Shown piece after piece: positions 1,122-47,249 of a stretch of 64,000 nucleotides of DNA. The notes under the pieces were generated by a model. It did no database searches, was not told the origin of the DNA, and worked only from the letters and a program-made list of their open reading frames with translations. The number at the start of each line of letters is the position of its first letter. The first letter of the stretch is position 1. The translations under genes were made by a program, and so were the position numbers. Where the stretch lies: assembly GCA_949292635.1 (NCBI GenBank), contig CASEZY010000003.1:1-64000 (forward strand), in the 5' to 3' direction. The stretch comes from an uncultured Methanomassiliicoccales archaeon (lineage in GTDB: Archaea; Thermoplasmatota; Thermoplasmata; Methanomassiliicoccales; Methanomethylophilaceae).

Positions 1122-2021
1122 ATGAATCTCAGGACCCTCCGCCGCAGCGATGACGAGTTCATCCGCGACGCGATAATGTCTTCAGGAGAGGACGAGGCCG
1201 AACTCCCCGACAGCAAGGCCCGCAGCCTCTCGGTGACGCTTCTGTATGTCATCGCCGGCATCGTCATCTGCCTGGCGGTGTGGTGGATCTTCGCCGAGGT
1301 CTACAACTCCTTCGCAGCTCGCGTGATAACCTTCCCCACCCCGCCGGAATGCTTCGCCAGGGTGTTCGAGATGTTCGCCGAAGGGTTCAGCATCCTGGGT
1401 AGCGACATCGGCACCCATGTGCTGAACAGCCTCAGGAGATGGGTGGAAGGGTTCCTGATCGCGTTGGTGATCGGTCTGGCGATAGGGGTCGCCATGGGCT
1501 GGAGTTCGAGGATATACCGTCTGGCCTCCGTGCCGGTGAACATCCTGCAGACGATCCCGGGACTGGCCTGGTACCCGGTGTGCATACTCATGTTCGGCCT
1601 GGGCGAGAACTCCGCGCTGTTCATCATCGCCGTCACCGCCATCTCCCCTATAGCCATCAACGTGGCCTCCGGATTGAGGAGGGTTCCCCAGGTGAACCTG
1701 AGGGTGGCCCAGATGTGCGGCAAATCCAGGATGGACACCTTCTCCGAGGTCCTGCTGCCTTATGCGGCCATCGACTTCATCAACGGCATACGCATCGCCA
1801 TGGCCAACGCCTGGAGGATGCTGATCGCCGCGGAGATGGTCGTCGGGGTGGCCGTGGGTCTCGGCTACGCGATACAGATCGAGACGGCGTACATGGATTA
1901 CGTCACAGCCTTCGCTTGCATCCTGATCATATGCGTCATCGGTTTGGTGATCGACAAGCTGATCCTGGCCAACGTGGAATCATATGCATCAAAGAGACTC
2001 GGACTGGAGGCGTCGGCATGA
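1122..2021 (+). CDS. ABC transporter permease, NitT/TauT-like
   Basis: The 299-aa inner-membrane permease is of the SsuC/TauC/nitrate type. After a charged cytoplasmic N-terminus, a first helix (about residues 35-57) is followed by five more segments. The cytoplasmic coupling loop reads SGLRRVPQVNLRVAQMCGKS near residues 185-204, ahead of AMANAWRMLIAAEM, which is typical of the BPD_transp_1 fold. The ATG at 1122 is chosen over the upstream frame opening at 1083 because of its perfectly spaced TATA box. Its stop overlaps the ATPase start by four bases (ATGA). With the next two genes it forms a complete importer. The substrate is unknown. Confidence 0.88.
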   Translation: MNLRTLRRSDDEFIRDAIMSSGEDEAELPDSKARSLSVTLLYVIAGIVICLAVWWIFAEVYNSFAARVITFPTPPECFARVFEMFAEGFSILGSDIGTHVLNSLRRWVEGFLIALVIGLAIGVAMGWSSRIYRLASVPVNILQTIPGLAWYPVCILMFGLGENSALFIIAVTAISPIAINVASGLRRVPQVNLRVAQMCGKSRMDTFSEVLLPYAAIDFINGIRIAMANAWRMLIAAEMVVGVAVGLGYAIQIETAYMDYVTAFACILIICVIGLVIDKLILANVESYASKRLGLEASA

Positions 2022-2821
2022 GCGTTCTCGAAGCGGAAGGGGTTTGGAAGGCCTTCGCGGACAGGAGGCGCACCAGGGCCCGGGTGGTGCTGAAGGATGT
2101 GACGCTCAGGGTGGAGGAGAACGAGTTCGTCTGCATACTGGGTCCTTCCGGCTGCGGGAAGACCACATTGCTGAACCTGTTGGCAGGGTTCGACAGACCC
2201 ATGGAGGGTCATGTGCGCTACCGCGGCGAGGAGGTCACCGGACCCTCGTCTCAGAGGGCGATGGTGTTCCAGGAGTTCAGTCTCCTGCCGTGGATGAACG
2301 TCCTGGGCAACGTGGAGTTCGCCATATCCAAGGATATCAGGGATCCCGATGCAAGGAGGGAGAAGGCCATGCACTACCTGAGGATGGTGGGTTTGGAGGC
2401 CTTCGCCGACCAGATGCCCGCCTCGTTGTCGGGAGGGATGAAGCAGAGGGTGGCCATCGCCCGCACCCTGGCGATGGAACCGGACGTGCTGCTGATGGAC
2501 GAGCCCTTCTCCAGTCTCGACGAGCAGACCAAGAGCCACCTGGACAACGAACTGAAGAGGATCTGGAACATGGACCGCAAGACCGTGGTGTTCATCACCC
2601 ACAGCATCGACGAGGCCATGCTGATGGCCACCCGCATCATCATGCTGTCCGCCTCCCCCGGCCGCATCTCCAGGGAATGGGTATTGGACCCGTCGGAGGA
2701 GCGGGACCCGTTATCGGACCGCTTCATCAAGCTGAAGAAGGAGATCCTCTCCGAATTGAGCCTCTGTTCCTGCACGTCCACCGGCCCGAAGATCATCACC
2801 GTGGAGGACCTGATATCATGA
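2018..2821 (+). CDS. ABC transporter ATP-binding protein, NitT/TauT-like
   Basis: The 267-aa ATPase energises the importer. Walker A is GPSGCGKTT (residues 42-50), the Q-loop is VFQEF (83-87), the signature is LSGGMKQR (137-144) and Walker B ends LMDEP (159-163), with SSLD after it and the switch histidine in ITHS. The order and spacing match SsuB/TauB/NrtD ATPases, normally about 250-270 aa. The C-terminal 30 residues include a CSC pair and are not part of the core fold. Start and stop overlap the flanking genes by ATGA, indicating translational coupling. Confidence 0.92.
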   Translation: MSVLEAEGVWKAFADRRRTRARVVLKDVTLRVEENEFVCILGPSGCGKTTLLNLLAGFDRPMEGHVRYRGEEVTGPSSQRAMVFQEFSLLPWMNVLGNVEFAISKDIRDPDARREKAMHYLRMVGLEAFADQMPASLSGGMKQRVAIARTLAMEPDVLLMDEPFSSLDEQTKSHLDNELKRIWNMDRKTVVFITHSIDEAMLMATRIIMLSASPGRISREWVLDPSEERDPLSDRFIKLKKEILSELSLCSCTSTGPKIITVEDLIS

Positions 2822-3939
2822 GCAGGAAGGCCATGGCCGTGCTCGCGGTGTATGTGATCATGGTGGCGGGGGCCGTCGCCGTGGTGGGCTCTCACGTGAG
2901 CGCCAACGACGACGCCGACATCTCCATAGCGGTTGGCACCAAGAATTGTTACGAGCCCATGTGGATCGCCGAGAGGCTCGGGTATTACGCGGACGAGGGC
3001 ATCACCGTCAAGTCCAACTATGTGGACGGCGGCGGCAACGCCTCCGTATCGCTGATGGAAGGAAGCTCGGACATCACACTGGTGGGTGCGGACCCTGCCA
3101 TCAGGATGATCGCCAGGGGCGGAGTCGTACTTGTGGCAGGCATAGAGATGCCGGTGAAGGATTCCTCCAGGGAGTTCGCCTATCGCAGTGGTCTGGGCAT
3201 CGATCTGAACGACGCTTCCACCTTGTTGAACAGGAACGCCGACGGCACATCCACCGTCAAGGTCCGCTGCGGCATGGACACCGCCACCGGATACTACTCC
3301 GGATATCTGATGTATCTGTACGATCAGATGCAGATGGGCAACATAACCGAAGCCGAGTATCAACTTCTGGGTGCGGTCAACGACGGCAGCAACGGCGGCG
3401 GTGTCGTCCATGTGGAGTTCGCCAACCAGGCGGTGGCCTTGGTGAACGGGGACGTGGAGATGATCACCAGCGGGAACACGGTGTTCATCGCCGAGAGTGC
3501 GGATGTGGAGATCGAGCTCGGAACATATTCCCTGCCGTCAAGCGGAGGCACCTGCTACATCTTCGCCTCCGAGGACACCTACAACAACAACTATGACAAT
3601 CTTGTGAGGGTCCTGAGGGCCTTCGACAGGGCATGCCTGTACATCCAGAGTGACGAGACCCGTCAGGGTGCGGCGGAGATGTGCGCCCGTTACTACGGAG
3701 CGACGGGATGGACGGTGGAGACCCAGTTGGAATTCTTCGAGGGCAACTTCTGGGACATCTGCATGGTCACCGACGTTGAGGGAGACCTGTCCATCAAGGC
3801 GTATCTTCTGGGATACGAGAACCTCGACTATGAGAGCGCGGTGAGGGTGGATGCGGTGCGCGATGCGCATATAGGCGTCACGCAGTACGATGGCCTGTAC
3901 ATGTACGATCTGAACGAAAGGAAGCTGGTGGAAGCATGA
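2818..3939 (+). CDS. ABC substrate-binding protein, NMT1/SsuA-like
   Basis: The 373-aa protein begins with one hydrophobic segment (residues 5-25) that would export or anchor it outside the membrane. A periplasmic-binding-like fold of the NMT1/THI5/TauA type follows: NCYEPMWIAERLGYYADEG (from about residue 42) is the classical first strand-helix, and GSSDITLVGADPAIRM is the ligand-loop equivalent. NMT1-type receptors bind sulfonates, nitrate, pyrimidines or other small organics, and the sequence does not say which. It is coupled by ATGA to the ATPase and to the UroD-like gene, so the imported compound is probably handled by that enzyme. Confidence 0.82.
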   Translation: MSRKAMAVLAVYVIMVAGAVAVVGSHVSANDDADISIAVGTKNCYEPMWIAERLGYYADEGITVKSNYVDGGGNASVSLMEGSSDITLVGADPAIRMIARGGVVLVAGIEMPVKDSSREFAYRSGLGIDLNDASTLLNRNADGTSTVKVRCGMDTATGYYSGYLMYLYDQMQMGNITEAEYQLLGAVNDGSNGGGVVHVEFANQAVALVNGDVEMITSGNTVFIAESADVEIELGTYSLPSSGGTCYIFASEDTYNNNYDNLVRVLRAFDRACLYIQSDETRQGAAEMCARYYGATGWTVETQLEFFEGNFWDICMVTDVEGDLSIKAYLLGYENLDYESAVRVDAVRDAHIGVTQYDGLYMYDLNERKLVEA

Positions 3940-4967
3940 GGACACCCCGTGAGATATTCGTCTCTGCGTTGTCCATGGAGGACACCGAGAGGGTGCCATT
4001 CTGTCCCCGCGACCTTACCTTGGGATTGGACGCGCTCGATGTGCGTACGGACTCTGTCTTCGGCGAGAGATACGATTCCAAACTCTCGGTAGCATGTGTG
4101 TTGGCACTTCAGGAGATGGTGGGTCACGACGTGACCATGGGGTGCATCTGCTCATACGGGCTGGAGGTCTTCGGCGGGGAGATGAAGTACCCGCCGGACG
4201 GGATCCCCTATGCCTCAGGATATCCGTTCGACGATATCGACCGTCTGGATCTGTACCAACCGGAGCAGATCGTCGGTGACAGGATGCGTGCCATGAGGGT
4301 AACGTGTGAGGCGGTCAGGGACAAACGTCCGGATCTGGGTCTTTGCATAAATATCCCCGGTCCGGTGACCATGGCCGGCTTCTCCAGGAAGCTGGAGACA
4401 TTCATGATGGACATGATCGAGAACCCGGACCTGGTGTCGAAGCTGGTATCGTTCTGCACCGACGCGCTGATAGTTCAGGCGGAGTACATGAGCGACGGCA
4501 TCGCCGACGCCGTTTATCTGGCGTCTGCGTCGGACAACCCGGACATGATGGGGGACGACGACTACCGCAGGCATTCCCTTCCCGCGGTGAGATGCATCGT
4601 CGATCGTTTGCACGATCTGGAGATACCCTCGATCTTCCACCCCCATGGTGTGTTCTCCACCGAGGACCGTCATGATCTGCTGATGGAATCCGCATCCGTG
4701 GCCGACGGTTTCCAGTTCGCTGAAGGGAACGATCCCCTGCCGATCGCGGGATCATGCAGGGACACCTGCGCACTGCTGGGCGGGGTCAACGGCTACTCGT
4801 CCCTATTGCTGGGGCCGGAGGAGAGGATTATCAGGGATGTGGACCGTTTCCTGGACGAGATGGAAGGAACACACTACATCATGACATGCTCCTGCTCGGT
4901 CAACCGCGGATTGCCCATAGAGAATCTCAGGGTGGTGGCGGAGGAGCTGCGGAGGCGCTCCTCGTGA
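3936..4967 (+). CDS. UroD/MtaA-family protein with His-x-His site, copy 1
   Basis: The 343-aa protein belongs to the uroporphyrinogen decarboxylase / methylcobamide:coenzyme M methyltransferase superfamily. Visible landmarks are FGGEMKYP near 79-86, INIPGPVTMAG at 138-148, ASDNPD at 198-203, HPHG at 235-238 and CSCSVNRGLPIEN at 318-330. Authentic MtaA/MtbA bind zinc with His-x-Cys plus a late Cys. Here the first pair is His-x-His (H235, H237) and the late Cys is kept (C318 or C320). Uroporphyrinogen decarboxylation is unlikely, since copies embedded in ABC operons usually act on methyl groups or corrinoids. It is fourth in the operon, with ATGA coupling to the binding protein and GTGA coupling to the GTPase. 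The true substrate is unknown. Confidence 0.8.
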   Translation: MRTPREIFVSALSMEDTERVPFCPRDLTLGLDALDVRTDSVFGERYDSKLSVACVLALQEMVGHDVTMGCICSYGLEVFGGEMKYPPDGIPYASGYPFDDIDRLDLYQPEQIVGDRMRAMRVTCEAVRDKRPDLGLCINIPGPVTMAGFSRKLETFMMDMIENPDLVSKLVSFCTDALIVQAEYMSDGIADAVYLASASDNPDMMGDDDYRRHSLPAVRCIVDRLHDLEIPSIFHPHGVFSTEDRHDLLMESASVADGFQFAEGNDPLPIAGSCRDTCALLGGVNGYSSLLLGPEERIIRDVDRFLDEMEGTHYIMTCSCSVNRGLPIENLRVVAEELRRRSS

Positions 4968-5575
4968 GATTGGTGGTGTTGGCCGGCCTCCGCGGGTCCG
5001 GGAAGACTTCCTGCCTGCTGGCGGCATCGAGGTACATCGACACGCCCATCGATTTCATCGCCAACAATCCCGAATCCCAGGAGATGATGTCCCCAGTCTG
5101 CAGGCGCACGGACAACTTCCCTTTCAAATCCCCGTGCGCCAGGGTCCGTCAGTTCAGGTTCAGGTACGACCTGATGATGGAGGGGTCGCCGGAACTGCTG
5201 GTGTGCGAACCCCCCGGCACCTGCGAGGACGAATCATCCCCGATGATCAATCCCGTGTTCGTGAAGGACCGGGGCAAGGTGTCCTTCGGCCCTCTGATCA
5301 CATTCTTCGAACCGGAGAAGGTGTTGGAGGGTCTCACGTCCAAGACCGTTCAGGGCCGCAGGCTCCGCAACATGGCGGATGAGTCGGATGCGGCCGTGGT
5401 CGCACACAGCGAATCCCTCACCGACGCGCAGCGGGTTTCCATCGCTGAGACGCTACGTTCGGTGAATCCGGACATCGAGGTGCTGTTCGTGTCCTTGGAC
5501 ACGGGAGAGGGCATCCAGTGTCTTGCACGGCTGATAGAATCCGAAGGATCCTACACGCGCCCGCTGTTCAACTGA
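4964..5575 (+). CDS. P-loop GTPase-like protein related to CobW/HypB group
   Basis: With the GTG at 4964 the product is 203 aa. The P-loop GLRGSGKTS (residues 8-16) and a strand ending LLVCEPPG (a Walker-B-like region close to the CobW vEptG strand) place it among SIMIBI-class NTPases. The metal-binding CxCC of COG0523 is missing (SPCARVRQ stands in the corresponding region) and there is no C-terminal CobW domain. GTG is chosen because it overlaps the UroD stop as GTGA and because sequence upstream in this frame is a shadow of copy 1. A role in metal or corrinoid delivery to the UroD partner, or in reactivation, is inference. Its 3' end overlaps the convergent copy 2 by 25 bases. Confidence 0.7.
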   Translation: MRLVVLAGLRGSGKTSCLLAASRYIDTPIDFIANNPESQEMMSPVCRRTDNFPFKSPCARVRQFRFRYDLMMEGSPELLVCEPPGTCEDESSPMINPVFVKDRGKVSFGPLITFFEPEKVLEGLTSKTVQGRRLRNMADESDAAVVAHSESLTDAQRVSIAETLRSVNPDIEVLFVSLDTGEGIQCLARLIESEGSYTRPLFN

Positions 5576-6582
5576 CGGACGGTGTCCGTCATCGTCCTTA
5601 TGTTCTCCAGCGGGACGCCTCTGTGCAGCGAGCAGGATGCGGAGAATATGTACGGTACATCGGATAGTCCGCGGACGTAGGTCTCCGTCTCATTCCTTAT
5701 CTCCTCCTCGGATCCTGTCATCAGCGTCGGCACTATGTCCGTTCCGCCCATGAAGGAGACCTTCCCCTTCAGGGATGATGTCATGACCCTGATGTCGCAT
5801 CTTTCAGCGAAGTGGAAGCAGTCGCATCCGGTGTCCTCGACAAGATGACCCAGATCCTTCTTATCTGAGAACAGTTCCCCGTGGGGATGCCAAATGCACG
5901 GCAGCCCCTTGCTCTTGAATATGTTGACAAATCCCTTGGTGTGACGTACTGAAACCGATTCGAACACCTCCTCACCGAAGAGGTCGGGATTGTCGGTGGC
6001 CGCCGCCAGCAGTCCGGCGTCGATGCTCCCGTCCCTGTGCATGAGATCCACCACAGATTCGGTGTTGCTCCTGCAGAATGATATCAGCTCCTCAAGCACA
6101 TCTGTATCTGTCTGGCACATCATGGACACGTTCTCGATACCGGCGAGAACCCCTGCCTTGGTCAGCGGTCCGGTGACGTTGGCCACCACCGCCGCGTCCG
6201 TCAATCCTCTGACGATCTTGTACGATTCGATGGCATCCAATGCGATGCCACGCGGTTCCGGGTCCAGGGAAGAGAAATCCGTCATACCATTCAAGGGATG
6301 GGTCAGCGGGGCGGTGATCCCCCTCTTGGGATACTTCATCTCCCCGCCGTACTGCTCCACGATGAAGGCAGGTGAGTGGCAACAGCCGATCACAGCGTCC
6401 TGTCCGGTGAAGCGAGAGAATCCGACGATGCACCTCGCCGACTGACCGGCATCGAACCTCCCCTTCGATAACACGGAATCGGTGTCCACGTCCGCCAGGT
6501 CCATGCATAATGTCATATCCCTGAGGAACACGGGTCTGGGCGTCACGTCGCCCCTCAGCGCCGATAAGAAACCATCGCGCAA
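5551..6582 (-). CDS. UroD/MtaA-family protein with His-x-His site, copy 2
   Basis: This is a second 343-aa UroD-superfamily protein, clearly paralogous to copy 1. It shares YGGEMKYP (78-85), NVTGPLTKAG (135-144), ATDNPD (195-200), WHPHG (231-235) and CSLHRGVPLEN (317-327). It too replaces the expected His-x-Cys of MtaA/MtbA by His-x-His (H232, H234) and keeps the late Cys317. It lies four bases after the 178-aa gene on the same strand and converges on the rightward ABC operon. Two diverged copies of equal length suggest a heterodimer or two related substrates. This is family-level evidence only; the reaction is not known. Confidence 0.8.
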   Translation of the reverse strand: MRDGFLSALRGDVTPRPVFLRDMTLCMDLADVDTDSVLSKGRFDAGQSARCIVGFSRFTGQDAVIGCCHSPAFIVEQYGGEMKYPKRGITAPLTHPLNGMTDFSSLDPEPRGIALDAIESYKIVRGLTDAAVVANVTGPLTKAGVLAGIENVSMMCQTDTDVLEELISFCRSNTESVVDLMHRDGSIDAGLLAAATDNPDLFGEEVFESVSVRHTKGFVNIFKSKGLPCIWHPHGELFSDKKDLGHLVEDTGCDCFHFAERCDIRVMTSSLKGKVSFMGGTDIVPTLMTGSEEEIRNETETYVRGLSDVPYIFSASCSLHRGVPLENIRTMTDTVRQLNSGRV

Positions 6583-6586
6583 CGGC

Positions 6587-7123
6587 TCACCCGTCGAACC
6601 CGATGATCAACGAGAAAAGTCTGGTGCCTACGGGCAGGTTGTGCAGCCCTTTGAGGTACGTGTCCGATATGACCGTGGGCGAAGCGCCTATGGCGCCTTC
6701 GAATCCGGAGCGTATGAGCTGGGGGATCTCGAAGGGGTACAGCACGAAACGCTCCTCCCCGGTGCCCACCGTCTCCGGGAACACCACGAAGTCCTCGGAT
6801 ACCCAGATGACATCGGTGCGTCCCCTGTATTCCTCCATCTCCTCCGGGAAGATGGTCTTGCCCATGATCGTGCCGTCGTCGCAGGTGAGCACCACCCTCG
6901 GATGGTATTCGTGCTGGAACTCGTCGGTGTAGAATGCGCAGAAGCGGTGCTCCTTCTCCGCCACCACCTTGCAGCCGACGTTCTCGTACTCCTGGTTGTT
7001 CTGGGTGAGAACGCTGCCTTCGATCTCCAGTATCTTCCTGACCTCTTCATCGCTCAGACCCCAGGTGCTGTGGATCCCTTCCACGGTGGAGAAGAAGTCC
7101 ATGGCCTGTTCCAGACGTCCCAT
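6587..7123 (-). CDS. Hypothetical protein, 178 aa, first gene of the copy-2 UroD operon
   Basis: This soluble 178-aa protein is not recognised. The N-terminus is helical (residues 1-35), followed by mixed strands with an aromatic/His-rich patch (FCAFYTDEFQHEYHPR, 61-76) and a proline-containing C-terminal half. No metal site or nucleotide loop is obvious. The ATG at 7123 is supported by a TATA element (TTTATA, 7147-7152) centred 26 bases upstream. The four-base gap to the UroD-like gene implies a joint function, perhaps as a partner subunit. Confidence 0.65.
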   Translation of the reverse strand: MGRLEQAMDFFSTVEGIHSTWGLSDEEVRKILEIEGSVLTQNNQEYENVGCKVVAEKEHRFCAFYTDEFQHEYHPRVVLTCDDGTIMGKTIFPEEMEEYRGRTDVIWVSEDFVVFPETVGTGEERFVLYPFEIPQLIRSGFEGAIGASPTVISDTYLKGLHNLPVGTRLFSLIIGFDG

Positions 7124-7146
7124 GGGGTCCGGATGGATGTAATCTA

Positions 7147-7152
7147 TTTATA
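7147..7152. promoter_or_regulatory. Shared bidirectional TATA element
   Basis: TTTATA is centred at 7149.5. Twenty-six bases to the left is the ATG at 7123 (leaderless leftward transcript). Twenty-six bases to the right is about 7176, immediately before the inverted repeat at 7177. One element can therefore serve both the UroD operon and the symporter operon. Confidence 0.5.
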
Positions 7153-7176
7153 CAAAGTTCGGCATGGGGGCGATAC

Positions 7177-7195
7177 CGTGCTAAGTGTTAGCACG
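7177..7195. promoter_or_regulatory. Perfect inverted repeat, candidate repressor operator of the symporter operon
   Basis: CGTGCTAA-GTG-TTAGCACG has 8-base arms and a 3-base spacer. It begins one base after the predicted rightward transcription start (about 7176) and ends 16 bases before the ATG of the accessory peptide, the place where an archaeal repressor would block polymerase. The arms resemble those of the bacterial CIRCE element but in opposite order, so this is not a CIRCE site. Confidence 0.55.
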
Positions 7196-7211
7196 CAACA
7201 AGGTGAATCAG

Positions 7212-7334
7212 ATGTCTCTGTTCGGAATACCCGACCCCTGGATCTGGATGGCGTACGTGGGCAGCTTCGCCTGCGTGGCCTTCTGTGCGATCTGGTACTG
7301 GCTCAAGAAGGACGAGGTGGAAGAGGATGAGTAG
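7212..7334 (+). CDS. Small symporter-associated membrane peptide (40 aa)
   Basis: The 40-residue product (from MSLFGIPDPWIWMAYV) has a single transmembrane helix and a lysine/acidic tail ending EVEEDE. Peptides of this form, with an N-terminal IPDPW-type motif, occur directly before sodium:solute symporters in many prokaryotes and are called small accessory proteins. AAGGTGA at 7200-7206 is a well-placed ribosome binding site. The reading frame overlaps the symporter start by eight bases, so the two are translationally coupled. Confidence 0.78.
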   Translation: MSLFGIPDPWIWMAYVGSFACVAFCAIWYWLKKDEVEEDE

Positions 7335-8940
7335 CGTCAATCTCGTCGTCTTCTCCGTCATGACCGTCATATTCGTGGCGGCCACGCTGCTCCTGGGTCT
7401 GTACGGTTACCGGAACTCCAAGAACAGCGAGGACTACATGCTCGGACGCAACAAGTCCAATTCCATGATCATCGCGTTATCGTACGGTGCCACATTCCTG
7501 TCCGCATCCGCGGTCATAGGTTTCGGCGGACAGGCTGCCGTCCACGGCGGAGCGCTGATGTGGCTCTGTTTCCTGAACCTCTTCGTGGGTGTGATCGTGG
7601 CGTTCATGGTGTTCGGCTACCGCACCCGCCGTATCGGCAAGAGGCTGAAGGCCTCCACCTTCGCCGACCTGCTCGGCAAGATCTACAAGTCCCGCGGCAT
7701 CAGGCTGTACACCGCGATACTGATCATCGTGATGATGCCCATCTACTGCGCCGCCGTCCTGAAGGGAGGGGTGAACTCCCTGGCCGTGATCACGGGACTG
7801 GATTACAACATGATGCTCATCCTGCTGTCCGTGGTCGTCGCCATCTACGTGGTCTACGGAGGCATCATCGCCGTCATGTACAACGATGCCCTGCAGGCGA
7901 TCATCATGCTGGTGGGCATGATCGTGATCTTCGCCGTCACCATCGCCGCCGTGGGATGGGACGGGTTCTCCATCCTCTCCGAGATGTCCATGTTGCAGAT
8001 CAACGGGCCCGGGGTCCTGCCCGGTGCCAACGGATGGACCTCCTTCGCCGACTTCGGCAGTCAGGAATGGATGACCGTGGTCACGACATTCCTGCTGGGA
8101 GTGGGCATCGGTGCATTGACCCAGCCTCAGCTGGCCGTCAGGTACATGTCCGCCAAGAGCGACAAGATGCTGAACAAGTCCATGCTCATCGGATGTGTGT
8201 TCATCCTGATCATCGTGGGTTCCGCATACACGGTGGGAGTGCTGTCCAACGTGTTCTTCATCGACGAGTTCGGACAGACCGCGGTGGCGTACGTCACCGA
8301 CGGTGTGGACTTCATCATCCCCACCTACATCATCGAGGTGTTTTCCAGCATTACCTTCGGTGACATCTTCGTGTCCCTGTTCCTGCTGTCCCTGCTGTGC
8401 GCGTCCATCTCCACCATCAGCGCCCTGATGCACACCATCGGCGCCGCCGGCGGATACGATGCGTACTCCGTGTGGAGGAGCATGAAGGAGGGTCGTGACG
8501 TGGACTCCCCGTCCATCAAGCTCAACAGGATCGTCACCATGGTGATGATGGTGATGGTGGTGGTCTACTGCTACCTGATGCCCTCGGACATCATCGCCAA
8601 GGCCACATCGGTGTTCATGGGGGTCACCGCAGCCGCGCTGCTGCCCACGTACTTCCACGGGCTGTACTCCAAGAATCCGGACCGCAAGGCCGCCATCGCC
8701 AGCATCACCGCGGGTACGGTCGTGTACCTGTTCTGGGCGCTGTTCGTATGTGCCAGCACCTCGGTGTTCCTGCCCATATGCAGTCTGATCACCGGCAATG
8801 CGGTGCTGTTCCCCGGGACCGCCCTGGCGTACACAGACCCCATGATCGCGGCGCTGCCGGTGTCCATCGTGGTCATGGCCGTCGTCCTGCTCATACGCAG
8901 GAGGGCGGAGGCCGGCTCCGAGGAGCCTGTCGCGGCATGA
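7327..8940 (+). CDS. Sodium:solute symporter family (SSS) transporter
   Basis: The 537-aa polytopic protein has about 13 membrane segments. The first helices and the segment YGATFLSASAVIGFGGQAAVHGG near residues 55-78 are typical of the SSS/LeuT-fold family, and YMLGRNKSN follows the first helix. SSS proteins move sugars, amino acids, carboxylates or vitamins with sodium ions, and the sequence does not reveal which. The ATG at 7327 is used instead of the more distal opening because it overlaps the accessory peptide in the common arrangement. Expression is probably set by the inverted repeat at 7177-7195. It is divergent from the UroD copy-2 operon and may feed the same pathway. Confidence 0.85.
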   Translation: MSSVNLVVFSVMTVIFVAATLLLGLYGYRNSKNSEDYMLGRNKSNSMIIALSYGATFLSASAVIGFGGQAAVHGGALMWLCFLNLFVGVIVAFMVFGYRTRRIGKRLKASTFADLLGKIYKSRGIRLYTAILIIVMMPIYCAAVLKGGVNSLAVITGLDYNMMLILLSVVVAIYVVYGGIIAVMYNDALQAIIMLVGMIVIFAVTIAAVGWDGFSILSEMSMLQINGPGVLPGANGWTSFADFGSQEWMTVVTTFLLGVGIGALTQPQLAVRYMSAKSDKMLNKSMLIGCVFILIIVGSAYTVGVLSNVFFIDEFGQTAVAYVTDGVDFIIPTYIIEVFSSITFGDIFVSLFLLSLLCASISTISALMHTIGAAGGYDAYSVWRSMKEGRDVDSPSIKLNRIVTMVMMVMVVVYCYLMPSDIIAKATSVFMGVTAAALLPTYFHGLYSKNPDRKAAIASITAGTVVYLFWALFVCASTSVFLPICSLITGNAVLFPGTALAYTDPMIAALPVSIVVMAVVLLIRRRAEAGSEEPVAA

Positions 8941-9112: not shown

Positions 9113-9670
9113 ATGGACATGGAACTAGTTTGGCACGGAAGAGGCGGACAAGGAGTTGTCACCGCCAGTGAGATCCTCGCCGAGACGGTGGTCGGGGAGG
9201 ACAAGTACGTCAAGGCCTTCCCCGAGTTCGGTCCGGAGAGGATGGGGGCGCCCATCAGGGCGTTCACCCGCATTTCTGAGAAGCCTATCAGGGTCCACAC
9301 GCAGGTCTACGAGCCCGACATCGTCATCGTTCTCGACGGCACGCTCATCGGTAAGGTGGACGTGACCAAGGGCCTGAAGAAGGGAGGCATCGTGCTGGCC
9401 AACTACCCCGGCACGCCCGAGGAGCTGAAGAAGGCACTGGGCACCGATGCCGAGTGCCACACGGTCAACGCCACCAAGATCTCCATGGAGGAGATCGGCA
9501 GGCCGGTGGCCAACACCGCCATGCTCGGCGCACTGATCAAGCTCTCGCCCATCGTCTCGTACCCCGCCCTGGAGTACCAGATCGTCTCCAAGTTCACCGG
9601 CAAGCTGTCGGAGAAGGCGATCAAGGCCAACCTGGCCGCACTGAACAGGGCCCACGAGGAGGTGATCTGA
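9113..9670 (+). CDS. porC: Pyruvate:ferredoxin oxidoreductase, gamma subunit
   Basis: The 185-aa gamma subunit belongs to the four-subunit archaeal pyruvate:ferredoxin oxidoreductase, which converts pyruvate and CoA to acetyl-CoA, CO2 and reduced ferredoxin. The N-terminal WHGRGGQGVVTA (from about residue 7), FPEFGPERMGAPIRAFTRIS and ANTAMLGAL are hallmarks of PorC/VorC. The ATG at 9113 is used; an ATG six bases later (9119) gives the more usual N-terminus and cannot be excluded, and a TTG at 9104 is also in frame. It is the first of four genes in the order C-D-A-B, with a one-base overlap to porD. Confidence 0.93.
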   Translation: MDMELVWHGRGGQGVVTASEILAETVVGEDKYVKAFPEFGPERMGAPIRAFTRISEKPIRVHTQVYEPDIVIVLDGTLIGKVDVTKGLKKGGIVLANYPGTPEELKKALGTDAECHTVNATKISMEEIGRPVANTAMLGALIKLSPIVSYPALEYQIVSKFTGKLSEKAIKANLAALNRAHEEVI

Positions 9671-9933
9671 TGAATCACAAGGACATGATCATCGGATCCC
9701 GCGTCACCGGCGGGACCGCGGAGAAGTTCGAGACCGGGGACTGGAGATCCGTCACCCCCGTGGTGGACATGGACAGCTGCATCGACTGCATGACCTGCTG
9801 GATCTACTGCCCCGATGACTGCATTCTGATCGACAAGGGCAAGATGGCCGGCATCAAGCTCAGCCACTGCAAGGGCTGCGGCATCTGCGCCAAGATGTGC
9901 CCCAAGGACGCCATCACGATGAAGGAGGACTGA
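9670..9933 (+). CDS. porD: Pyruvate:ferredoxin oxidoreductase, delta (ferredoxin-like) subunit
   Basis: This 87-aa subunit carries two [4Fe-4S] clusters. The ligand sets CIDCMTCWIYCPDDC and CKGCGICAKMCP are both complete, as in 8-Fe ferredoxins. It passes electrons from the thiamine site to external ferredoxin. The start overlaps the porC stop (TGATG), and the gene ends two bases before porA. Confidence 0.93.
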   Translation: MNHKDMIIGSRVTGGTAEKFETGDWRSVTPVVDMDSCIDCMTCWIYCPDDCILIDKGKMAGIKLSHCKGCGICAKMCPKDAITMKED

Positions 9934-9935
9934 AC

Positions 9936-11096
9936 ATGGGAGATTTGGCAATCAACGGAGACAGCGCCATCGCATTGGCATGGAAGCAGATCGACCCCGA
10001 TGTGTGCGCCGCGTACCCCATCACACCGCAGACCATCATCGTGGAGAGGTTCTCCGACTACGTTAACGACGGAGACGTCAGCACCGAGTTCGTCTGCGTC
10101 GAGAGCGAGCACTCCGCCCTGACCGTGTGTACCGCATCCGGTTCCGCCGGAGCGAGGACCTTCACCGCCACCTCCTCCCAGGGGCTGGCGTACATGTGGG
10201 AGATGCTGCCCATCACATCCGCCATGAGGGTGCCTCTGGTCATGGCAGTGGCCAACAGGACCGTCAGCGGACCCATCAACATCCAGAACGACCACGGGGA
10301 CGTCATGTCGGCCAGAGACACCGGATGGCTGTCCATCTTCGCCGAGAACGTGCAGGAGGCCTACGACTGCGCGATCATGGCCCCAAGGATGGCGGAGCAC
10401 CCCGATGTGCAGCTACCGATCCTGGTGAACCTGGACGGATTCATATTGACCCACGCCATCGAGAGGATGACCCCTCTGGAGGACGCGGTTGTCAAGGAGT
10501 TCGTGGGCGAGTTCAAGCCCTTCATGCCGCTGCTGGACTACAAGAACCCCGTGTCCCACGGCCTGATGGACGGCCCCGAGTTCTACATAGAGCACAAGTA
10601 CCAGCTGGTCCAGGCCATGGAGAATGCCGTCCCTGTGATCGAGCAGGTCTTCGAGGACTACGGCAAGCTCACCGGCAGGAAGTACAACATGGTGGAGCAG
10701 TACATGTGCGACGACGCCGAGTACGTGGCCGTCGTCCTCGGTTCCGCCTACGGCACCATGAAGGCCGCGGTGGACGAGCTCCGCGCCAAGGGAATCAAGG
10801 CGGGAGTGTGCATGCCTCGTGTGTTCAGGCCTTGGCCCGCCAAGGCGCTGGCCAAGATCCTGGACGGCAAGAAGGCCGTGGCGGTCATGGACAAGCACCT
10901 GTCCGTGGGAGCCTACGGTCCGCTGTACCCCGAGGTCACCGCTTGCCTGGAGGCATGCAAGAAGGCGCCCAAGGCCTACGACTTCGTCTTCGGCCTGGGC
11001 GGAAAGGACACAAGGGTCTCCGAGTTGGAGGTCGTGTACGAGAAGATCGCCTCCGGCAAGGCGAAGATCGTCAACTATCTGGGGGTGGAAGAATGA
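9936..11096 (+). CDS. porA: Pyruvate:ferredoxin oxidoreductase, alpha subunit
   Basis: The 386-aa alpha subunit includes AAYPITPQTIIVE near residues 24-36 (the conserved PITPQT loop), VESEHSALT and TSSQGLAYMWE, followed by the transketolase C-terminal-type domain with VFRPWPAK. Length matches archaeal PorA (about 390 aa). It forms the substrate and CoA pocket with PorB. The ATG at 9936 follows porD by two bases, and the stop overlaps the porB ATG by four bases. Confidence 0.93.
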   Translation: MGDLAINGDSAIALAWKQIDPDVCAAYPITPQTIIVERFSDYVNDGDVSTEFVCVESEHSALTVCTASGSAGARTFTATSSQGLAYMWEMLPITSAMRVPLVMAVANRTVSGPINIQNDHGDVMSARDTGWLSIFAENVQEAYDCAIMAPRMAEHPDVQLPILVNLDGFILTHAIERMTPLEDAVVKEFVGEFKPFMPLLDYKNPVSHGLMDGPEFYIEHKYQLVQAMENAVPVIEQVFEDYGKLTGRKYNMVEQYMCDDAEYVAVVLGSAYGTMKAAVDELRAKGIKAGVCMPRVFRPWPAKALAKILDGKKAVAVMDKHLSVGAYGPLYPEVTACLEACKKAPKAYDFVFGLGGKDTRVSELEVVYEKIASGKAKIVNYLGVEE

Positions 11097-12040
11097 GCTC
11101 CAAACCTATCAAGGAACTGATCAACTCCGACGTGAGGCTCACCTCCGGCCACAGGCTGTGCGCCGGATGCATCGAGTCCGTCATCGCCAGGCAGGTGCTG
11201 ATGAGCACCGACAAGCCCGTCGCAGTGGCCAACGCCACCGGATGCTTCGAGGTGTCCACCACCATCTTCCCCTACACCGCATGGAACGTGCCGTGGATCC
11301 ACACCGCCTTCGGCAACGGCGCCGCCACCGGCGCCGGTGTTGAGGCCGCCTACCAGGCTCTGAAGAGGAAGGGCAAGATCACCGAGGAGATGCGCTTCGT
11401 CGCCTTCGGCGGAGACGGTGCCACCTACGACATCGGTTTCCAGGCCCTGTCCGGTATGATCGAGAGGGGACACCAGCTCATGTACGTCTGTCTGAACAAC
11501 GAGGCCTACATGAACACCGGTATCCAGAGGTCCGGTGCCACCGGATTCGGCGCATCCACCACCACCTCCCCCGCAGGGACCGTGGTGCCCGGTAAGACCG
11601 AGTACCCCAAGGACCTGACCATGATCATCGCCGCCCACGACCTGCCCTATGCGGCTCAGGTGTCCCCCCACAACTGGAGGGACTTGATCGGCAAGTGCGA
11701 GAAGGGATTCGAGTGCGGCGGTCCTGCGTTCATCAACGCACTGTCCCCCTGCCCCAGGGGATGGAGGTTCAACTCCGAGGACGGCATACTGATGGCTAAG
11801 CTGGCCGTCGAGACCTGCGTCTGGCCCCTCTACGAGTACGAGAACGGCAAGTTCACCCTGACGGCAGAGTCCAAGAGGATCGCCGACGGCGTGATCGAGA
11901 AGAAGCCGGTCACCGAGTGGTTCAAGGCCCAGGGCAGGTACAAGCACATGCTCACCGAGACCAACGCCCCGCTGGTGGCCAAGGTCCAGGCCGAGATCGA
12001 TCGCAAGTGGGAGAGGCTGGTAGCCCTCTCCAAGCTCTAA
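11093..12040 (+). CDS. porB: Pyruvate:ferredoxin oxidoreductase, beta subunit
   Basis: The 315-aa beta subunit binds thiamine diphosphate. GGDGATYDIGFQALSG followed by NNEAYMNTGIQRSG is the TPP/magnesium motif (GDG...N). LCAGC near residue 22 and later Cys residues supply the proximal [4Fe-4S] ligands. ATSPAG-type residues and HDLPYAAQVSP match PorB rather than 2-oxoglutarate or branched-chain homologues, so pyruvate is the likely substrate. It is the last gene of the por operon, followed by a GC-rich hairpin. Confidence 0.93.
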   Translation: MSSKPIKELINSDVRLTSGHRLCAGCIESVIARQVLMSTDKPVAVANATGCFEVSTTIFPYTAWNVPWIHTAFGNGAATGAGVEAAYQALKRKGKITEEMRFVAFGGDGATYDIGFQALSGMIERGHQLMYVCLNNEAYMNTGIQRSGATGFGASTTTSPAGTVVPGKTEYPKDLTMIIAAHDLPYAAQVSPHNWRDLIGKCEKGFECGGPAFINALSPCPRGWRFNSEDGILMAKLAVETCVWPLYEYENGKFTLTAESKRIADGVIEKKPVTEWFKAQGRYKHMLTETNAPLVAKVQAEIDRKWERLVALSKL

Positions 12041-42167: not shown

Positions 42168-42401
42168 ATGCAGGAAGGAAGTCAGAAGAAGACCCGCGGA
42201 GAACTTGGGGATGTGCTCATGCTCCTTGTGATCGCCGTGGTCGCACTCGTCATCGTTCTCGTTGTGGCGTTGCTGCTCTGTCTGATCTTCGGTGTCGCCG
42301 TGGACGTCATCAACAACGGCTATGCGGTCATCGACGCCGTGGCCATCTTCATGGCAGGTGCCATGATCGCCATGGCGCTGGCACTGGGGAAGAGGCGTTA
42401 G
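42168..42401 (+). CDS. Small membrane protein (77 aa)
   Basis: After a charged start (MQEGSQKKTRGELGDV) come two long hydrophobic helices (about 16-45 and 52-73) and GKRR. GGGAGG seven bases upstream and a TATA-like CTTTAATAAC (near 42127-42136) support the start. No family is recognised. It overlaps the convergent redox protein by four bases. Confidence 0.6.
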   Translation: MQEGSQKKTRGELGDVLMLLVIAVVALVIVLVVALLLCLIFGVAVDVINNGYAVIDAVAIFMAGAMIAMALALGKRR

Positions 42402-42823
42402 ATCAGGCCTTTGGCGATGTCTATCGCATCCAGGCACAGCTTGGTGCACAGGGTGTCGAAAAGTCCGTCCGCGTAGGCCTTGGTGTTGCCTTCGTTGGTA
42501 CGGACGTCCACGCCCATCAAATCAGGGCAGGTCAACCTGCCGTTCCTCTTTTGGAACTCATCCAAGAACTGTTCCCTCTTTATCAGTGCCAGACCCTTGG
42601 AGGAAGCGTCCGGTTCCGTCGAACCGTACCTCCATCCTATCACGATCAGCCCGCCCAGGATCGCTCCGCACACGGTCCCGCGGAACAGTCCCATGCCCAT
42701 GCAGGATGCGGTATGCATCACCGCCTCGAAATCATCGCCCAGCTCCTCCCTGAAAGCGGACACCACGCATTGAGTGCAGTCGAAGCCTCTGTCGAACAGC
42801 GCAGATATCTCCGCCCGGTCCAT
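42398..42823 (-). CDS. C_GCAxxG_C_C family protein
   Basis: The 141-aa protein belongs to the redox-active C_GCAxxG_C_C family: FDCTQCVVSAF near residue 13, ASCMGMGLFRGTVCGAILGGL and CTKLC at the C-terminus give the characteristic cysteines. Family members are thought to bind a metal cluster or form disulfides; no reaction is established. A TATA-like AAATACC read leftward at about 42843-42849 supports the start at 42823. Confidence 0.75.
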   Translation of the reverse strand: MDRAEISALFDRGFDCTQCVVSAFREELGDDFEAVMHTASCMGMGLFRGTVCGAILGGLIVIGWRYGSTEPDASSKGLALIKREQFLDEFQKRNGRLTCPDLMGVDVRTNEGNTKAYADGLFDTLCTKLCLDAIDIAKGLI

Positions 42824-46224: not shown

Positions 46225-46812
46225 ATGCACCTTGTCATCGTGTCCGGGATGCTCGGTTCGGGCAAGACCTCCGTGATCCTGAAGCTGTTGGACGGGATGT
46301 TCCCCGCCGGAGCGAAGGTCGCCGTCATCGAGAACGAGTTCGGTGAGTTGGGCGTTGATACCGAGGTGCTGGAACGCAGCGGCATGCCTGTCCGCGATCT
46401 GAAGGGCGGATGCATCTGCTGCACATTGGCGGGAGGTCTGGCGGATACCCTGCGCGGGTTGTCCCAGTATTCCCCCGACTATGTGGTAGTGGAGCCCACC
46501 GGCATCGCAGACCCGTCTATAGTGGTGAACTCGGTCACCGACGTGGACGGCATACACATCGACGGGATCACCGTCCTGGTGACCGTGGACTGCGAGAGGT
46601 TCCTGAAGGTCAGGATGATGTTCGAACATCCCCTCAAGAACCAGTTCAAGGTGGCCGACGCGGTGCTGATGAACAAGGTGGACACCGTCTCGGCGGAAGA
46701 CCTGGATGCTATCGAGGCGGGCGTCCGCGAGATCGGTTATGGTGGAAAGGTCATCCGTATCAGAGCGGACAGCGGCGAGGGCATGGATGCTGTGAAGGGG
46801 ATGTTCGCATGA
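46225..46812 (+). CDS. CobW/COG0523-type GTPase without C-terminal domain
   Basis: The 195-aa P-loop protein has GMLGSGKTS (8-16), ENEFGELGVD (37-46), the metal site GGCICC (61-66), VVEPTG and the guanine motif NKVD. COG0523 GTPases deliver or sense metals such as zinc, cobalt or nickel. Normal members add a CobW_C domain (total over 300 aa), which is absent. TTTTATACC centred about 26 bases upstream supports a leaderless ATG. The following gene overlaps by ATGA and may stand in for the missing half. Confidence 0.83.
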   Translation: MHLVIVSGMLGSGKTSVILKLLDGMFPAGAKVAVIENEFGELGVDTEVLERSGMPVRDLKGGCICCTLAGGLADTLRGLSQYSPDYVVVEPTGIADPSIVVNSVTDVDGIHIDGITVLVTVDCERFLKVRMMFEHPLKNQFKVADAVLMNKVDTVSAEDLDAIEAGVREIGYGGKVIRIRADSGEGMDAVKGMFA

Positions 46813-47249
46813 CCTCCGACCAGGAGTTCATACCGACGGTGGCCGCCTGCAGACTGTACGGCGCCGTTGATCTCCCTGCAGCTGAGGCCAACAACCTCCT
46901 GAAAGGATTGCTGTCCCGCATCTCGGTGCGCTGCGGAAGGATCGGGGTCATAGGTCACAACAAGGCCAACTTCCGCTGCGGGGACGACCTGCTGTCCATT
47001 AGCTGCACCACCGAGGACGGGAACGTGCGTTCCAAGACCGAGTTCACCGACAGGGTGTGCGACGTGGAAGGGGTGATGGACGTCATCGTCTACTCCGCCG
47101 ATTTCCATGATCTCAAACATATCATCGAGGACGAGACGTCCGAGACGGGACTGAGGGCGGAGGTGAAAGAGCCGGAGGGCTGTCACGACCCCGATTGTCA
47201 CGATCCAGATTGCCACGACCCCAGACACAGATTGGTGAGGTTCGATTGA
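46809..47249 (+). CDS. Partner of CobW-type GTPase with Cys-His-rich tail
   Basis: The 146-aa protein begins with a globular domain (1-120; single Cys residues at 14, 42, 57, 66 and 84) of unknown family. It ends with three tandem CHDPD-like units (C125-H126, C130-H131, C135-H136, then H140), coded by a 15-base repeat. Such tails bind soft transition metals. Its ATGA overlap with the GTPase argues that the pair forms a metal chaperone or sensor. The metal (zinc, nickel or cobalt) is not known. This is a clear candidate for a new split CobW-like system. Confidence 0.7.
   Translation: MTSDQEFIPTVAACRLYGAVDLPAAEANNLLKGLLSRISVRCGRIGVIGHNKANFRCGDDLLSISCTTEDGNVRSKTEFTDRVCDVEGVMDVIVYSADFHDLKHIIEDETSETGLRAEVKEPEGCHDPDCHDPDCHDPRHRLVRFD

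Follow-up and report, generated by a model that had tools for sequence, protein, structure and literature searches.

An ABC importer and HPHG-motif UroD-superfamily proteins form a conserved, co-inherited unit in Methanomassiliicoccales

The DNA analyzed here, called the window, is a stretch of 64,000 nucleotides (positions 1 to 64,000, forward strand) of contig CASEZY010000003.1 in assembly GCA_949292635.1, from an uncultured Methanomassiliicoccales archaeon of the Methanomethylophilaceae. An earlier note had proposed that positions 1122 to 8940 hold an uptake-and-methyltransfer module, and every gene that it named was recovered in place by open reading frame (ORF) calls. These genes, with the por genes behind them, are listed below. 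L numbers denote loci, G numbers genomes, g numbers genera, and f numbers families of the order; G000 is the window's genome.

1122 to 2021, plus strand: ABC importer permease (BPD_transp_1); nearest NCBIfam models SaoP, TauC, NtrB, and SsuC, all below cut-off
2018 to 2821, plus strand: ABC importer ATPase (ABC_tran); nearest NCBIfam models SaoA, TauB, and NtrCD, below cut-off
2818 to 3939, plus strand: binding protein, NMT1/SsuA-type, with a hydrophobic N-terminal segment
3936 to 4967, plus strand: uroA (URO-D), UroD-superfamily enzyme with the HPHG motif
4964 to 5575, plus strand: CobW-like (G3E) P-loop NTPase, GTG start
5551 to 6582, minus strand: uroB (URO-D), second HPHG paralogue, TTG start
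6587 to 7123, minus strand: u178, 178-aa ORF without a Pfam or NCBIfam family
7212 to 7334, plus strand: symporter small accessory protein, 40 aa (NF045580)
7330 to 8940, plus strand: SSS-family sodium:solute symporter (SSF), PanF/PutP-like
9113 to 12040, plus strand: porC, porD, porA, and porB, 2-oxoacid:ferredoxin oxidoreductase

As the earlier note had described, the five leading plus-strand genes are coupled by 4-base overlaps at all four junctions (ATGA, ATGA, ATGA, and GTGA). On the minus strand, uroB starts 4 bases after u178 and converges with the NTPase gene, the two 3' ends overlapping by 25 bases. The 40-aa peptide and the SSS symporter diverge from u178. The Pfam domains across the locus are BPD_transp_1, ABC_tran, NMT1, URO-D (twice), and SSF. 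This arrangement is not due to chance, since several families of Methanomassiliicoccales share the gene order and the NTPase gene always adjoins uroA. Elsewhere in the window, a C-GCAxxG-C-C family protein is encoded at 42398-42823, and 46225-47249 holds another CobW-like NTPase gene with a 146-aa ORF behind it.

The 40-aa peptide scored 40.9 bits against NF045580 (cut-off, 35), which identifies it as a symporter small accessory protein. Behind the symporter come the por genes, and the same symporter-por arrangement was found in L034, L026, and L148; in L148 (G092) no UroD gene lies beside it. The symporter was treated as a neighboring unit because porCDAB comes after it in four genomes of the genus, in L148 with no UroD beside it, and it probably belongs with porCDAB, separate from the UroD module. 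For u178, neither Pfam nor NCBIfam gave a match, and a PDB fold search with its confident model (pLDDT 92) gave none. Of 120 genomes from the order, 118 encode a relative of u178, and the relatives examined in detail often adjoin mcrBDGA or genes for an AtwA-like ATPase/McrC. The window's u178 is a diverged paralogue of this order-wide protein encoded beside mcr; further copies of the family lie at L138:5605-6126, L145:786-1358 and 5597-6142, and L139:9709-10272. It is very unlikely that the whole span from 1122 to 8940 works as one functional module. An HPHG-family UroD gene adjoins u178 and the symporter in L026, L034, and the window itself and lies within ~7 kb of them in L025, but the por genes also follow the symporter where no UroD is adjacent, and no UroD gene neighbors the close u178 paralogues of L142-L144. 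Of the span put forward as a single module, the ABC/UroD part holds, whereas four genomes of the genus link the symporter to u178 and to the downstream porCDAB.

The permease, ATPase, and NMT1-family binding protein are encoded in one operon and constitute an ABC importer, all scoring above their Pfam cut-offs (BPD_transp_1, 63.7 bits against 26.4; ABC_tran, 116.5 against 25; NMT1, 24.4 against 20.5). None of the subunits reached an equivalog cut-off among curated NCBIfam transporter models. An orthologue of the binding protein in L062 scored 113.7 bits against SsuA_fam (TIGR01728). The importer has its subunit families and nearest curated models in common with SsuABC/TauABC/NrtABC-type importers and with SaoXPA of the SAO system. 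Membership of the SAO organometal system was rejected, with SaoP, SaoA, and SaoX among the nearest models but all far below cut-off; the other components of that system were not identified in the window module. Uptake of coenzyme M (CoM) to offset missing biosynthesis was likewise set aside as weakly motivated, because Borrel et al. inferred the CoM pathway in three sequenced Methanomassiliicoccales members (PMC4153887).

Across the order, the arrangement permease-ATPase-binding protein-uroD was seen in families f1, f2, f3, f4, and f6. In one large subclade it was found for 19 of 24 UroD genes, two of the 19 at contig ends. Presence and absence were compared in 120 genomes, scored by score gaps and counting family UroD proteins and close permeases. 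Both were present in 35 genomes and neither in 79; four had UroD only (G069 and G112, plus G057 and G067, whose cassettes are cut by contig ends), and two had the permease only (G042 and G103). The co-occurrence gave a Fisher p of ~2e-23, uncorrected for relatedness. In genera g13 and g18, UroD and the permease were both present or both absent; the exceptions were G057, with its cassette at a contig end, and G024, with a fragment of UroD. When a UroD gene had no adjacent ABC genes, a close permease was often encoded elsewhere in the genome; in five genomes of g21 and some of g1, the ABC genes are located away from UroD. Thus, the link between importer and UroD-like protein drawn in the earlier note is borne out at the genome level, where homologues do not turn up in a scatter of genomes lacking the ABC genes. 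The UroD, ATPase, and permease trees also concur: g7 genomes of f1 group with f2, and L058 (G029, f6) groups with f1. These shared odd placements suggest transfer as a unit. Established computationally by gene order, co-occurrence, and co-inheritance, the ABC importer and the UroD-like protein are a conserved, co-inherited unit.

A second type of ABC importer, with four genes encoding a ~550-aa binding protein, two permeases, and a Pot/Fbp-like ATPase, is linked to another UroD subclade (L025:10689-15402, L056:12026-16471, and L073:8770-13187). A BioB/HydE/PylB-like radical SAM gene also recurs, both beside UroD and next to ABC genes that have no UroD (L025, L041, L043, L046, and L058, a remnant in L040, and L167). 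Its L058 copy is a fusion with a CobW domain, and a homologue is encoded in the window's genome at G000:C8:11700-12587.

UroA and UroB are members of one sharply separated clade of the UroD superfamily, found here only in Methanomassiliicoccales. In the sampled phylum, members scored at least 443 bits against the family profile, and every other match among those listed scored at most 127 bits; about 200 phylum genomes outside the order gave no family match at 1e-30. A pattern scan of 84,980 species, which requires one of two conserved peptides and could miss remote relatives, found 36 loci, all in archaeal records consistent with Methanomassiliicoccales. In the tree, 55 rows (54 distinct sequences, with the window's uroB entered twice) formed one clade with support of 97/96, and uroA and uroB fell into different subclades of this HPHG family.

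The AlphaFold model of UroA (mean pLDDT, 96) found its best PDB match in M. mazei MtaA (4ay7; TM 0.86), with HemE structures at ~0.8. The hemE cut-off of 303 bits in NCBIfam was missed by UroB (22 bits), and UroA gave no match. Identity as a HemE decarboxylase was rejected on this score and on the closer fold match to MtaA, so that profile searches against MtaA, MtbA, and HemE together with structure prediction place neither protein among these decarboxylases. The MtaA-like character was upheld for the fold but not for the curated families or for the His-Cys-Cys zinc motif, which is absent. Against mtaA_cmuA, MtaA, and MtbA (cut-offs of 235, 400, and 600 bits), UroA scored 67, 60, and 48 bits and UroB 73, 53, and 33 bits, respectively. 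In common with MtaA/MtbA/MtsA, the HPHG proteins have the fold, the superfamily, the aligned His, Glu, and later ligand Cys, and CobW-type neighbors, as in COG0523 subfamily 13. They differ in having HxH for HxC, identity of only ~20%, scores far below the curated cut-offs, and coupling to an ABC importer with no corrinoid gene nearby.

The zinc ligands of described S-methyltransferases of the superfamily are His-Cys-Cys (PMC10418091). In an alignment of 27 relatives (uroA numbering), HPH replaces HIC in 27 of 27, and the HxC ... C pattern is not kept. D200, N201, H235, P236, H237, E263, G282, and G283 are invariant, and C320 is nearly so, being Gly in L054 and L072, where a Cys sits two residues earlier. 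Motif variants are HPRG in L026, which is outside this alignment, and HPHS in L056. The two closest canonical paralogues in the window's genome carry HICG at the HPHG position. A profile alignment to 4ay7 set HPHG over HICG and C320 over the later ligand Cys; it was used instead of the pairwise phmmer alignment, which misplaces the His motif by three residues. HPHG in the place of HICG points to zinc coordination by His-His-Cys(+Glu) rather than by His-Cys-Cys, with H235, H237, E263, and C320 as the predicted ligands in UroA. Since one of the two zinc Cys residues of MtaA is replaced in every motif-covering member, thiol or methyl-sulfur chemistry becomes less certain.

The inclusion of the NTPase in the module stood in part. 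Clear orthologues were found in 11 genomes and directly follow uroA in all 11, usually with a 4-base overlap (the gene call in L035 begins late), but the gene is tied to uroA only and to one family of the order. The window NTPase gave weak Pfam matches and none to PF02492 (CobW/HypB/UreG), a family matched by its L040 orthologue at 3.3e-9 (37.0 bits; gathering cut-off, 20.7). Like the COG0523/CobW (G3E) putative metal chaperones, it is a P-loop NTPase, but it is short (~200 aa) and without their CxCC metal motif; SPCAR or TPCAR is the sole Cys motif in orthologues covering this region. COG0523 proteins have a genomic link to zinc-dependent corrinoid methyltransferases, and in Methanosarcina their genes adjoin mtaA, mtaB, and mtaC (Haas et al.; PMC2770081). 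By analogy with these neighborhoods, a metal-chaperone role for the NTPase is a reasonable proposal.

Described UroD-type methyltransferases usually have a corrinoid protein nearby. Here, no corrinoid protein or MtaB-type methyltransferase was found beside the UroD genes, which the earlier note had pointed out for this locus and which extends to ~49 related neighborhoods. The window's genome encodes four corrinoid proteins, all on other contigs. When the UroD neighborhoods were searched with these four, no corrinoid protein was found, and one activase-like ORF (82 bits) was detected in L042. A canonical cluster is present in the window's genome at L135:717-8640 (G000:C6), comprising CobW, a corrinoid protein, a UroD protein with HNC, a zinc ribbon, and a hydantoinase-like protein.

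These observations bear on whether the UroD-like proteins are methyltransferases at all. Their zinc site might instead hydrolyze the imported compound, cleave a C-S/C-X bond in it, or carry out some other reaction. A second His is conserved in place of the Cys ligand, the neighborhood is free of corrinoid genes, and the superfamily includes other chemistries, among them decarboxylation and epoxide:CoM transfer. However, the closest fold and profile neighbors are methyltransferases, and CobW and zinc-ribbon partners are common to the canonical corrinoid methyltransferase cluster of the same genome. We consider such a reaction possible but unlikely.

Among the closest described systems are the mlp gene clusters of type 1 (Kountz and Balskus 2023; PMC10418091), defined by at least two Mlps, a corrinoid protein, and Ram in the same direction within 2 kb. 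Similarly, they hold several MtaA-like proteins per locus without an MtaB-type methyltransferase and have transporters among their accessory genes. In contrast, the window module has no corrinoid protein and no Ram/RACE, uroA and uroB lie on opposite strands, His-Cys-Cys is not kept, and the range found here is confined to one order. No description of this module was found in the open-access literature. The module is a variant of UroD-type methyltransferase systems, and what is new is the motif and the transporter link.

Nutrient salvage rather than energy metabolism has been proposed for type 1 mlp gene clusters, and the same role could apply here: an organosulfur, sulfonate, or selenium compound would be imported, and the UroD-like enzyme would free S or Se. 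The binding protein is nearest to SsuA, and the permease and ATPase are nearest to TauC/SsuC/SaoP/SaoA. Mlp2 methylates selenide (Kountz and Balskus; PMC10418091), and related loci hold peroxiredoxin-like, C-GCAxxG-C-C, and CobW_rel_Se-like neighbors. Every curated transporter cut-off was missed, however, and salvage seems a rather improbable role.

We tentatively favor, at somewhat less than even confidence, a reading in which a solute is imported and then demethylated in a zinc-dependent step, the corrinoid partner being encoded elsewhere. Family, fold, and motif, like gene order, co-occurrence, and co-inheritance, are computed results; from fold, motif, and context, we infer zinc binding, methyl transfer, corrinoid partner, substrate, and NTPase role. 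The ABC transporter would import a small solute, perhaps an organosulfur or similar anionic compound to judge from the SsuA/TauA/NMT1 class. UroA and UroB, as MtaA-fold zinc enzymes with a His-His-Cys(+Glu) site, would bind its methylated group and remove the methyl, most likely onto one of the corrinoid proteins that the genome encodes at other sites; with the methyl group so bound, MtaA-type enzymes would then make methyl-CoM. Loading or upkeep of the zinc site may fall to the CobW-like NTPase encoded behind uroA. Against this reading stand the lack of any corrinoid or MtaB neighbor in the neighborhoods searched, the replaced zinc Cys, the ABC genes located away from UroD in g21 and g1 genomes, and the UroD genes of G069 and G112, which have no close permease. 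The stronger proposal, that the HPHG proteins make up a functionally new class of UroD-superfamily zinc enzyme in a transporter-fed pathway that brings an unrecognized methyl donor into Methanomassiliicoccales methanogenesis, is doubtful.

To our knowledge, all described members of Methanomassiliicoccales are methylotrophic. Few substrates are known for these archaea, which matter for methane in guts and wetlands. The UroD clade is gained and lost with the importer across genera, which points to a specific compound used by some lineages and not by others. The module could give these methanogens an undescribed route to food or nutrients. The altered zinc motif also raises the biochemical question of which reactions a His-His-Cys site opens to the superfamily. 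In genus g21 (L050 and L061), an HPHG UroD protein carries a fused C-terminal zinc ribbon, and longer UroD ORFs occur in L052, L055, and L057. The g21 ribbon resembles the stand-alone one beside canonical UroD genes of the window's genome (L135 and L156).
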